Part shown: positions 924 to 61,909 of the stretch, in pieces
Numbering within the stretch: position 1 is the stretch's first letter
Layout: each line of letters starts with the position of its first letter
DNA from: Niallia circulans
Lineage (GTDB): Bacteria; Bacillota; Bacilli; Bacillales; Cytobacillaceae
Assembly: GCF_007273535.1 (NCBI RefSeq)
Contig: NZ_RIBP01000004.1
Span: 3,138,001-3,202,000 of the forward strand
Direction of reading: 5' to 3'
Length of the DNA: 64,000 nt
Program-made: the position numbers and the translations under genes
The notes under the pieces: generated by a model
Database searches by the model: none
Seen by the model: only the letters and a program-made list of their open reading frames with translations
What the model was told of the DNA's origin: nothing

Positions 924-2258
924 TTAGAATTTAAATTGGTAATTTTCAATTTCCCAAGCATGAATTTGTGTACGGTAGTTATCCCACTCTGCTTTTTTTG
1001 CTGCAACATATTCATAGAATACGTGCTCGCCAAGTGTTTTAAGCCCGATTTCACCTGCTTCTAGTTCAGCAACAGCTGCTTCTAGACCGCCTGGCAAGCT
1101 TTCGATGCCAAGTTCATCGCGGCGTGCATCTGTCATGTGGAAGATATCTTCATTAACAGGTGCTGGAGCTTTTAATCCTTTTTCTACTCCATCCAAACCA
1201 GCAGAAGCGATAACTGCAAATGTTAAATATGGGTTAGACGCTGGATCTGGACAACGTAATTCTACGCGAGTAGCCATGCCTTTTTTCGCAGGGATACGAA
1301 TTAATGCAGAACGGTTAGAAGCAGACCAAGCAAGATATACTGGAGCTTCATAGCCAGGTACTAGACGCTTGTAAGAGTTTACTAGGGGGTTTGTTACCGC
1401 AACAAAGCTCTTCACATTATCAAGGATACCTGCGATGAAAGAGTATGCTTCGCTTGAAAGCTGTAATTCATCAGACTCATTGTAGAAAATGTTTTCGCCA
1501 TCTTTGAAGAATGACATGTTAACATGCATTCCAGAGCCGTTGATGCCAAATACTGGTTTCGGCATGAATGTTGCATGCAAACCGTATTGTGCTGCGATTG
1601 TTTTAACAACCCATTTGTAGGTTGTTGCAAGGTCAGCCGCACCAAGAGCATCTGCATATTTAAAGTTAATTTCATGCTGGCCTTCTGCCACTTCATGATG
1701 CAACGCTTCAATTGTGAAGCCCATTGCTCTTAACGTTTTGAAAATTTCAACGCGAACCTTTTCACCTAAGTCTTTCGGAGATGGCTCAAAGTAACCGCCT
1801 CTATCACCTAAAACTGTTGTCGGATACCCTTGTGCATCTGTTTCAAACAAGAAGAATTCCAACTCAGGTCCTACAGAAATTGTATAGCCATGTTCTGCAG
1901 CACGTGCAACTGTTTTCTTAAGAACATTACGTGTGTCGCCTTCAAATAATGTGCCATCAGGATTAGTTACAGAGCAAAGGAAACGTGCTTCTGAGTATCC
2001 TTCTTCTTCTGTCCAAGGCAACACAACAAATGTGTTTAAATCTGGGGCTAAGTAAGAATCTGATTTATTAATAGGTGAAAATCCTTTAATGGAAGAACCA
2101 TCAATCATGATTTTCCCTTCTACTGCATCATCTAATTGAGCTGCTGTAATTGTGATATTTTTCAAAATTCCTTCAATATCGACAAATTGCATATGCAATA
2201 ATTCAACGTTTTTTTCTTTAATGATACTTTGAATCTGTTCTAATGTAATTTCAGCCAT
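924..2258 (-). CDS. glnA: Type I (alpha-like) glutamine synthetase paralogue
   Basis: ATP-dependent condensation of ammonia and glutamate to glutamine. Its 444 residues match the usual length of Bacillus GlnA and align without gaps at the N-terminus. Visible signatures are DGSSIKGF near residue 53, GPELEFFLF, the HHEVAEGQHE metal and glutamate site, KPVFGINGSGMHVNMS for ATP, and NRSALIRIP. It is monocistronic and is not preceded by a glnR repressor gene, unlike the standard glnR-glnA pair. Residue 62 is proline within FSPINKSD, where B. subtilis GlnA has Arg62, the residue tied to glutamine feedback; E58 of GSSIEGF is lysine. It is probably a second, differently regulated synthetase. A different gamma-glutamyl ligase activity cannot be excluded. 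Confidence 0.9.
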   Translation of the reverse strand: MAEITLEQIQSIIKEKNVELLHMQFVDIEGILKNITITAAQLDDAVEGKIMIDGSSIKGFSPINKSDSYLAPDLNTFVVLPWTEEEGYSEARFLCSVTNPDGTLFEGDTRNVLKKTVARAAEHGYTISVGPELEFFLFETDAQGYPTTVLGDRGGYFEPSPKDLGEKVRVEIFKTLRAMGFTIEALHHEVAEGQHEINFKYADALGAADLATTYKWVVKTIAAQYGLHATFMPKPVFGINGSGMHVNMSFFKDGENIFYNESDELQLSSEAYSFIAGILDNVKSFVAVTNPLVNSYKRLVPGYEAPVYLAWSASNRSALIRIPAKKGMATRVELRCPDPASNPYLTFAVIASAGLDGVEKGLKAPAPVNEDIFHMTDARRDELGIESLPGGLEAAVAELEAGEIGLKTLGEHVFYEYVAAKKAEWDNYRTQIHAWEIENYQFKF

Positions 2259-60947: not shown

Positions 60948-60980
60948 ATATGGCTGTACATGATAGCTTTAACAAAGCTA

Positions 60981-61015
60981 AGAGGTTCATAGCAGATACC
61001 CTCTATAAAAAACTA
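60981..61015 (+). promoter_or_regulatory. Class I preQ1 riboswitch aptamer
   Basis: P1 stem AGAGG (60981-60985) with CCTCT (61000-61004), loop TTCATAGCAGATAC, then the A-rich tail ATAAAAAACTA (61005-61015). The tail CTA pairs with TAG (60990-60992) to make the H-type pseudoknot of class I aptamers. The sequence is close to the known Bacillus queC leader. PreQ1 binding should stop transcription at the terminator that follows. A small stem TAGCTTT/AAAGCTA sits just upstream (60964-60980). Confidence 0.92.
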
Positions 61016-61046
61016 TGGATACAGGTGAACAACTGCCATGTCCATA
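61014..61046 (+). promoter_or_regulatory. Predicted antiterminator of the preQ1 riboswitch
   Basis: TATGGA (61014-61019) can pair with TCCATA (61041-61046). Two of its bases are used by the aptamer pseudoknot and three by the terminator stem, so the structures exclude each other. Confidence 0.6.
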
Positions 61047-61070
61047 ACTTAGGATGTGGCTTTTTATTTT
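61035..61070 (+). terminator. Riboswitch-controlled terminator before queF
   Basis: Stem GCCATGTCC (61035-61043) with GGATGTGGC (61052-61060), nine pairs including two G-U, followed by TTTTTATTTT. It is 70 bases before the queF start. Confidence 0.85.
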
Positions 61071-61139
61071 GTAAAAAACAGCCATATCTATAGATTGCTA
61101 TTCTCAGATGTAACGATCAAATGAAATGGAGAGATGGAA

Positions 61140-61310
61140 ATGTCAGGCAGAAAACACGAAGAAGGTCTTGAGGATTTAACATTGCTCGGGAACCAAGGAA
61201 CTACCTATCTATATGAGTACAACCCAGAAATATTGGAGTCTGTTGATAACCTGCATGTGAACAGAGATTATTTTGTTAAATTCAACTGTCCAGAATTTAC
61301 TAGCTTGTGT
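61140..61310 (+). CDS. queF: preQ0 reductase QueF, exon 1 (codons 1-57)
   Basis: N-terminal 57 residues of NADPH-dependent 7-cyano-7-deazaguanine reductase, which makes preQ1 for queuosine in tRNA. The sequence [15 protein letters not shown] and [19 protein letters not shown] matches B. subtilis QueF (165 residues). The exon ends exactly with the codon of the catalytic cysteine, C57 here, C55 in B. subtilis. The ATG at 61140 has GGAGAG six bases upstream. Without splicing the frame reads Cys-Gln-stop (TAG at 61314-61316). Joined to exon 2 the protein is 166 residues with no missing or extra codon. Confidence 0.95.
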
Positions 61311-61579
61311 CAATAGGGGCACACTTCAGTGGTGACACTGTCGCTTAAACCTCGTGAACTCAGGGAAGGAAGGATATTCTAATCCTGAGCCAAGCCTCTA
61401 ATATGTTAGAGGAAGGTGCAGAGACTATCGAAACCATGCAGATTAAGAATCGGGTAAAAGTATTAGTTTGCAGAAGGGAGTAGAGTACATCCATAAATTT
61501 GGGTGGAAGCGCGAGGATGCTTATATTCGACCGAAAGAATATATGTATATGATATAGTCCACCTGCAAATTTTGCAGTG
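61311..61579 (+). ncRNA. Group I self-splicing intron inside queF
   Basis: 269-nt intron. P1: exon TGTGT plus C61311 pairs with GGCACA (61318-61323), with the required U-G pair at the splice site (T61310-G61319). P2 CAGTG/CACTG closed by GTGA (61327-61340). P3 CTTAA (61344-61348) with TTAAG (61443-61447). P4 TCAGG (61360-61364) with CCTGA (61384-61388). The Q element AATCCTGAGCCAAGC (61381-61395) and R element GGTGCAGAGACTA (61415-61427) are those of cyanobacterial tRNA-Leu introns. P7 GACTAT (61423-61428) with ATAGTC (61554-61559). P9 CTGCAA/TTGCAG (61563-61577). The last base is G61579. It is too short to hold a homing endonuclease. Confidence 0.93.
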
Positions 61580-61909
61580 CCAATTACTGGACAACCGGAT
61601 TTTGCTACAATGTATATTAGCTATATTCCGGATAAAAAAATCGTTGAAAGTAAATCTTTAAAGCTATACTTGTTTAGCTTCCGTAATCACGGTGATTTCC
61701 ACGAAGACTGTGTGAATATCATCATGAATGATCTTATTAAATTATTAGATCCTAGATATGTGGAAGTATGGGGTAAATTCACACCAAGAGGCGGCCTATC
61801 AATCGATCCTTATTGCAATTATGGTAAGCCAGGAACTAAGTTTGAAGAAATGGCTGCACACCGTCTTATGAACCATGATCTATATCCAGAGAAAGTGGAC
61901 AATAGATAA
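61580..61909 (+). CDS. queF: preQ0 reductase QueF, exon 2 (codons 58-166)
   Basis: Begins with CCA (Pro58) directly after the intron's terminal G and runs 109 codons to [22 protein letters not shown] carries the conserved aspartate D64 that assists the cysteine; then [19 protein letters not shown] (substrate and subunit contacts) and [14 protein letters not shown]. The C-terminus [12 protein letters not shown] is that of B. subtilis QueF. It has no start codon or ribosome site of its own, so it depends on splicing to be made as part of the enzyme. Confidence 0.95.

Follow-up and report, generated by a model that had tools for sequence, protein, structure and literature searches.

From our analysis of a 64-kb window (the whole stretch of Niallia DNA that was examined here), the 269-nt segment at positions 61,311 to 61,579 is very probably, with a probability that we put at about 93%, a group I intron in queF which is predicted to remove itself from the mRNA, joining the codons of Cys57 and Pro58 and making a full-length QueF possible. 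QueF is an enzyme of tRNA-queuosine synthesis, and Cys57 presumably is its catalytic, thioimide-forming nucleophile, judging from the alignment to B. subtilis QueF and from the literature. The gene is a new host for a known kind of element, and the intron is real and well supported by comparison.

In a cmscan search of the window against Rfam 15, the group I intron model RF00028 matched at 61301-61577 (60.4 bits, gathering 50, E 8e-13). A first-pass annotation, made from the letters alone, had proposed a group I intron here together with this covariance search, and its boundaries were borne out to the base. The intron separates TGT (Cys57) from CCA (Pro58), as had been claimed, exon 1 ending in ...AGC TTG TGT (61310) and exon 2 starting with CCA ATT ACT GGA (61580). 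Since 269 nt is not divisible by three, the frame is restored solely by removal of the intron. Such removal gives an uninterrupted gene, which is matched by the empty site at the same codon boundary in six sister species; the joined exons (57 + 109 codons) encode the 166-residue enzyme that the annotation had anticipated. This product passes the QueF-II model TIGR03139 with 176.4 bits (cut-off 86.9) and aligns with B. subtilis QueF (4f8b) over residues 4-166, to the end of the protein, at E 3.7e-95. Exon 1 has a further in-frame ATG at 61134. A whole-genome RF00028 search of the same genome returned 0 matches despite the cmscan-positive intron, which we take to reflect its limited sensitivity, so that it is silent on further copies.

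That the interruption is an artefact of assembly or annotation, or an insertion of another kind (e.g., group II intron, intein, or IStron), is close to negligible, because 24 sequenced loci share the site with diverging sequence, RF00028 alone reaches its gathering score in the window, and the 269 nt hold no long ORF. An intein was rejected as stops break the frame, and a group II intron and an IStron were rejected as we found no such Rfam match and no such ORF. The gene is present in single copy; the exon-2 protein search found one place in the genome and the QueF-II family search just the two exons, so that no second intact queF is present, which is in favour of the annotation. The same genome carries tgt and a TIGR00364 gene, which we take to be of the queC family, and the queuosine pathway is therefore probably in use. 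The coordinates of all features are collected in Table 1.

Table 1. Features of the queF locus, in window coordinates.
Feature	Position	Strand	Evidence or remark
preQ1-I-like riboswitch aptamer, queF leader	60976..61022	+	RF00522 36.4 bits, gathering 39
Terminator-like hairpin and U-run, 3' of the aptamer (predicted)	61035..61065	+	9 bp, -14.2 kcal/mol, z -3.05
queF exon 1, 57 codons, ends ...TTG TGT (Cys57)	61140..61310	+	TIGR03139 31.9 bits on the 59-aa form
P1 exon strand UGUGU, including the 5' splice-site U	61306..61310	+	GTGT in 24/24 intron-bearing queF
Group I intron, without long ORF	61311..61579	+	269 nt; RF00028 60.4 bits; exact empty sites in 6 relatives
In-frame stop TAG, second codon after exon 1	61314..61316	+	Stop at the same codon in 22/24
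Internal guide GCACA, pairs UGUGU, splice-site U-G	61319..61323	+	GGGCACA in 24/24; pairing read from the sequence
P2 hairpin	61327..61340	+	CAGTG...CACTG in 24/24
P3 5' strand	61350..61356	+	Partner 61510-61516
P4 5' strand	61359..61364	+	Partner 61384-61389
P4 3' strand	61384..61389	+	Partner 61359-61364
P6/P6a	61390..61416	+	Compensated variation in P6a pairs
P7 5' strand GACUA	61423..61427	+	Partner 61555-61559; 24/24
P7.1 and P7.2 extensions between P7 and P3	61428..61509	+	Covarying hairpins
P3 3' strand	61510..61516	+	Partner 61350-61356
P8	61517..61550	+	Covariation
P7 3' strand UAGUC	61555..61559	+	24/24
P9 hairpin	61563..61577	+	Rfam alignment; multiple alignment of P9 poor
Terminal guanosine (omega-G)	61579..61579	+	24/24 introns end in G
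queF exon 2, 109 codons and stop	61580..61909	+	TIGR03139 129.2 bits including the preceding GTG

Architecture and covariation of the intron RNA

Our comparison covers 24 complete queF introns (7 from Niallia and 17 others, six named genera in all), every one at the same codon boundary; L053, L063, and L064, which hold the 3' part of the intron only, were left out, the contig of L064 being represented by L069. The U-G pair at the 5' splice site and the terminal G were found in all 24, and the core of P3-P8 and P4-P6 with P7 is supported by covariation. P3 reads CCTCGTG/CGCGAGG in 12 introns and CCTTGTG/CGCAAGG in the other 12, a full C-G to U-A exchange, and P7 is invariant (P3 and P7 counted in all 24 introns, L057 included). 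In P6a, P7.1, P7.2, and P8 the variation is compensated, with up to five standard pair types per pair in P7.1 and P7.2 among 19 distinct sequences, and up to six in P8 among 14 distinct sequences, most cells being paired; these counts cover the 23 introns that could be parsed, L057 falling outside the stricter pattern and the P7.1/P8 split of L006 being misplaced by it. The arrangement of two covarying hairpins at 61428-61509, between P7 and P3, is the layout of subgroup IA. Of the elements listed by the first-pass annotation, P1 with its U-G, P2, P3, P4, P7, P9, and the terminal G are present, and all of these but P9, which aligned poorly, are sustained by the 24 introns.

P1 is short (5 bp), and the GG just 5' of the guide could pair with the CC of exon 2 to form a P10 of about 2 bp by reading. 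GTGT precedes the insertion site in 24/24 intron-bearing genes as against 5 of the 63 intronless queF genes that were read (Fisher p 7e-17, a value inflated by ignoring relatedness, as the tree holds only about three intron-state changes). The other intronless genes encode the same residues with different codons for leucine or cysteine. This bias lies in the direction that P1 pairing predicts, and the exon's choice among synonymous codons seems to be dictated by the guide. The 63 intronless rows comprise 23 loci and 40 best-scoring further places, drawn from 88 genomes with a match (G082 was skipped at a contig end), and 10 of them fall outside the sequence pattern and were read by position. 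Among queF genes more generally, one genome (G028:C1:3266317-3266526) has a second, partial QueF match of 70 residues besides its intact one, and the queF at L038 (genome G041) is apparently one base short just past the TGT-CC site, its frame broken, possibly by sequencing error.

The introns range from 249 to 1201 nt in length and fall into the three frames as 10/10/4, and exon 1 and exon 2 are open (L071 was flagged in the exon check merely since its locus ends one base before the stop position). In 4 of 11 computed pairs, those with measurable dS (0.3-2.5), exon dN was 0-0.034; dS was saturated in the other seven, with dN of 0.03-0.20. Because intron lengths occur in all three frames, yet both exons are open and conserved, splicing is strongly implied. 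In 20/24 introns the last codon is ATG, GTG, or TTG in frame with exon 2 (61577-61579 here), which would suit a relic that is group I by descent and dead in splicing, queF being a pseudogene or exon 2 being made alone from this NTG. We consider such a relic very improbable, given that both exons are conserved and open, that the pairing of P1, P3, P7.1, P7.2, and P8 is maintained, that exon 2 alone would lack the cysteine, and that there is no second queF while tgt and a queC-family gene are present; the pseudogene was considered and rejected. Pairing beside the terminal G may be what preserves the TG in front of exon 2, and automatic annotation might call from the NTG a truncated QueF without its cysteine.

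For an intron that splices, the predicted steps are as follows. Once transcription has passed the preQ1-like riboswitch, a ribosome would translate exon 1 and halt at the in-frame stop just inside the intron, which could then fold undisturbed. In 22/24 introns this stop (TAG, TGA, or TAA) is the second codon, and in the other 2 a shift puts it at the 13th codon. A view reported in the accessible text of the review PMC3984707 is that stops at the intron start may stall ribosomes and aid intron folding. The guide GCACA would then pair with the UGUGU that closes exon 1. A guanosine in the P7 site would attack just 3' of the U in the U-G pair, and the freed exon 1 would attack after the terminal G at 61579, giving the TGT-CCA junction.

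Distribution within and beyond Niallia

Within the genus, 7 of 13 genomes carry the queF intron at the same site (262-269 nt, RF00028 above cut-off in 7/7), and the other six have an uninterrupted queF with TGY|CCN at exactly that codon boundary. In an rpoB tree of 12 of these genomes, which lacks one carrier for want of an rpoB sequence, a branch with support of 100/100 separates the six sampled carriers from the rest. This grouping points to vertical inheritance within the genus, the intron apparently having passed along with the species through one gain or one loss. A core pattern was found in 8/193 genomes of the family, namely the seven carriers and G010, where it lies in a different gene. 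A search for relatives of the intron gave matches in 9/101 genomes. Besides the seven carriers these were G023, with an intron in another gene (L008), and G060, where the match (L009) spans 37 bases, has no Rfam match at E <= 0.01, and was set aside as probably chance. The L008 intron (1414-1676, minus strand, RF00028 91.8 bits) is situated where a 470-codon ORF, phage tape-measure-like by eye, comes to an end. Genome G010, of the same genus and without the queF intron, carries a different group I intron at L042 (685-1031, minus strand, RF00028 75.6 bits) in a gene that looks like nrdE by eye, with a 261-codon open frame that runs into the core and by eye resembles a GIY-YIG endonuclease.

The search for homologous introns that had been suggested found them elsewhere. 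A scan of genome_contigs for exact copies of a 23-base core stretch, which is conserved in Niallia and so leads to near relatives only, gave 19 loci, each followed by queF exon 2 by reading; 16 of the 19 hold exon 1 inside the locus and have the same intron site. The genera with the intron at this site are Anoxybacillus, Aeribacillus, Ectobacillus, Heyndrickxia, Bacillus, and Niallia. The combined guide and P2 pattern was found in 7/397 genomes of the order and 3/398 of the class; these three also belong to the order, and the 398-genome class draw gave no match outside it. RF00028 reached its cut-off in 11 of a set of 18 sources that were tested (one of the 11, L042, not in queF), and the seven misses comprise three loci with inserts of ~890 nt, three cut at the locus end, and L055.

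The tree of intron cores is broadly host-like, with Niallia together (89/88) and Aeribacillus inside Anoxybacillus (98/96). The queF tree has three intron-state changes and splits Niallia, its carriers grouping with Heyndrickxia and B. chungangensis (SH-aLRT 84); in the careful version (75 of 77 rows, L078 and L113 being dropped as long branches), Niallia came together in 1% of bootstrap trees. AU tests did not reject a single Niallia clade (p 0.30), nor did they clearly reject a single clade of all carriers (p 0.082). The split of Niallia hints at transfer, and both one old gain followed by losses and transfer between genera remain as histories.

Endonuclease-like frames and viral relatives of the core

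An ORF of about 300 codons (290-318) resides in P5, between the P4 strands, in 5/24 introns, all from the Anoxybacillus family (A. thermarum, A. ayderensis, A. mongoliensis, an Anoxybacillus MAG, and G512, which has the same family code as G311), where 886-895 nt lie between the two strands. The frame runs on into the core, so that P4/P6 sequence encodes its C-terminus (NPEPS...). In a set of 5.8 billion proteins, seven such proteins were found, one with 99% identity to the query. All seven match phrog_8446, a phage HNH endonuclease family of PHROGs (best E 1.6e-12), and share the motif CxxC...HH...CLCxxCHxxxH, which we take to be HNH-like. Pfam gave a NUMOD3 match in one of the seven and nothing beyond it, and the ORF had no significant match in NCBIfam, none in a PDB sequence search with its profile, and none by tblastn in 50,697 phage records; an AlphaFold model of low confidence (mean pLDDT 65.8) had no Foldseek match at E <= 0.001. 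The ORF is likely an HNH homing endonuclease that once spread the intron.

The remaining introns are graded in size. A. flavithermus (L062) retains a 58-codon remnant with the C-terminal end of the ORF, and G337 has an open frame that matches this remnant in size and position. Seven introns have a P5 of 65-125 nt and one has a P5 of 43 nt; in eleven, among them all seven from Niallia, it is down to 14-21 nt. The window intron has no forward-strand open frame longer than 41 codons and so carries no homing endonuclease of its own. ORF loss is seen in Anoxybacillus, and we infer it in Niallia. The suggestion of the first-pass annotation, that the element had once homed into an invariant site, is strengthened by the HNH-like ORF in five of the 24 same-site introns and by the remnants in others.

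An exact 21-base stretch from P6-P7 of the core also occurs in eight IMG/VR viral contigs, with GATATAGTCC downstream of it in seven and TGAGCCAAGCC upstream in four. In four of the eight an ORF runs into the core (by eye), and one (L133) has a gathering-level RF00028 match at the stretch. These phage introns differ in their host genes, which are mostly polymerase-like by eye, from the one in queF, and the queF guide-P2 signature gave 0 matches in the viral contigs. A blastn search of the intron in the 50,697 phage records matched a single Lactobacillus phage, present as two records, at 70% across half of the query. The source of the intron is likely a phage-type core that was re-targeted to queF. 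Among the viral contigs, L130 has three separate RF00028 matches in 10 kb, near ORFs that by eye are DNA polymerase-like.

Presumably, a phage-type intron whose P5 then held an HNH-type endonuclease came into queF either in a common ancestor of several Bacillales lineages or by transfer among them. Several lineages, the ancestors of Niallia probably among them, would later have lost the ORF, and the compact intron would now be inherited vertically in that genus.

Known host genes and the queF leader

The bacterial protein genes named as hosts of group I introns in the accessible text of the review PMC3984707 are flagellin, recA, and nrdE, and that text makes no mention of queF. No report of a queF intron was found in the open-access papers searched, although one may exist elsewhere. 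The accessible part of PMC3468402 describes a phage homing endonuclease gene near reductase genes, with no intron inside them. Like the known introns in recA, in nrdE/nrdF of Bacillus, and in flagellin of thermophilic Bacillus/Geobacillus (accessible text of PMC3984707), the queF intron occupies a chromosomal protein gene of Bacillales. Unlike those, it resides in queF, right after the likely catalytic cysteine codon, lies behind a preQ1-like riboswitch, and is found at one site in six named genera with graded loss of an endonuclease-like ORF. A metabolic tRNA-modification gene thereby joins the short list of bacterial protein genes that host group I introns, the insertion being at very constrained enzyme codons. 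The single site offers a natural series from endonuclease-like ORF through remnants and ORF-less introns to empty sites in sister species, so that the life cycle of the intron becomes open to testing in environmental bacilli.

At the queF loci of the genus, the preQ1-I model RF00522 matched at E <= 0.01 in 13/13 members and above its gathering score in 6/13; in the set of 18 sources tested with RF00028, a preQ1 match lies within the same 6-8 kb in 12. One messenger holds a preQ1-like aptamer and a predicted guanosine-consuming ribozyme, and any joint action of the two is speculation. Group I introns require guanosine, and GTP is the precursor of the queuosine pathway, as of all 7-deazaguanines. 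It is unlikely, although it can be entertained, that the intron not only splices but also regulates queF by doing so, in dependence on guanosine or temperature, and is kept by selection beyond mere tolerance. The guanosine requirement together with GTP as the pathway precursor would fit such a role, as would the location in a messenger that already bears a preQ1-like riboswitch and the compact form of 11/24 introns, all seven of Niallia among them. In addition, the reference list of PMC3984707 cites work on temperature-dependent flagellin introns in thermophilic Bacillus. Nevertheless, six sister species manage without the intron, and its persistence may equally reflect the difficulty of exact loss.

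A more specific form, to which we would give somewhat less credence still, is that the queF messenger carries two RNA devices, one for each end of the pathway, the riboswitch reading the product preQ1 and the splicing rate of an intron placed at the catalytic codon reading GTP, so that a domesticated homing intron would gate QueF. If splicing is regulated, the intron would be among the few self-splicing introns that serve as metabolic control. The c-di-GMP-controlled allosteric group I ribozyme of Clostridioides difficile is similar in that a riboswitch and a group I ribozyme occur in one messenger. In that system the aptamer reportedly adjoins the ribozyme and controls it, whereas here the preQ1-like aptamer lies ~290 nt upstream and has a terminator-like hairpin of its own.
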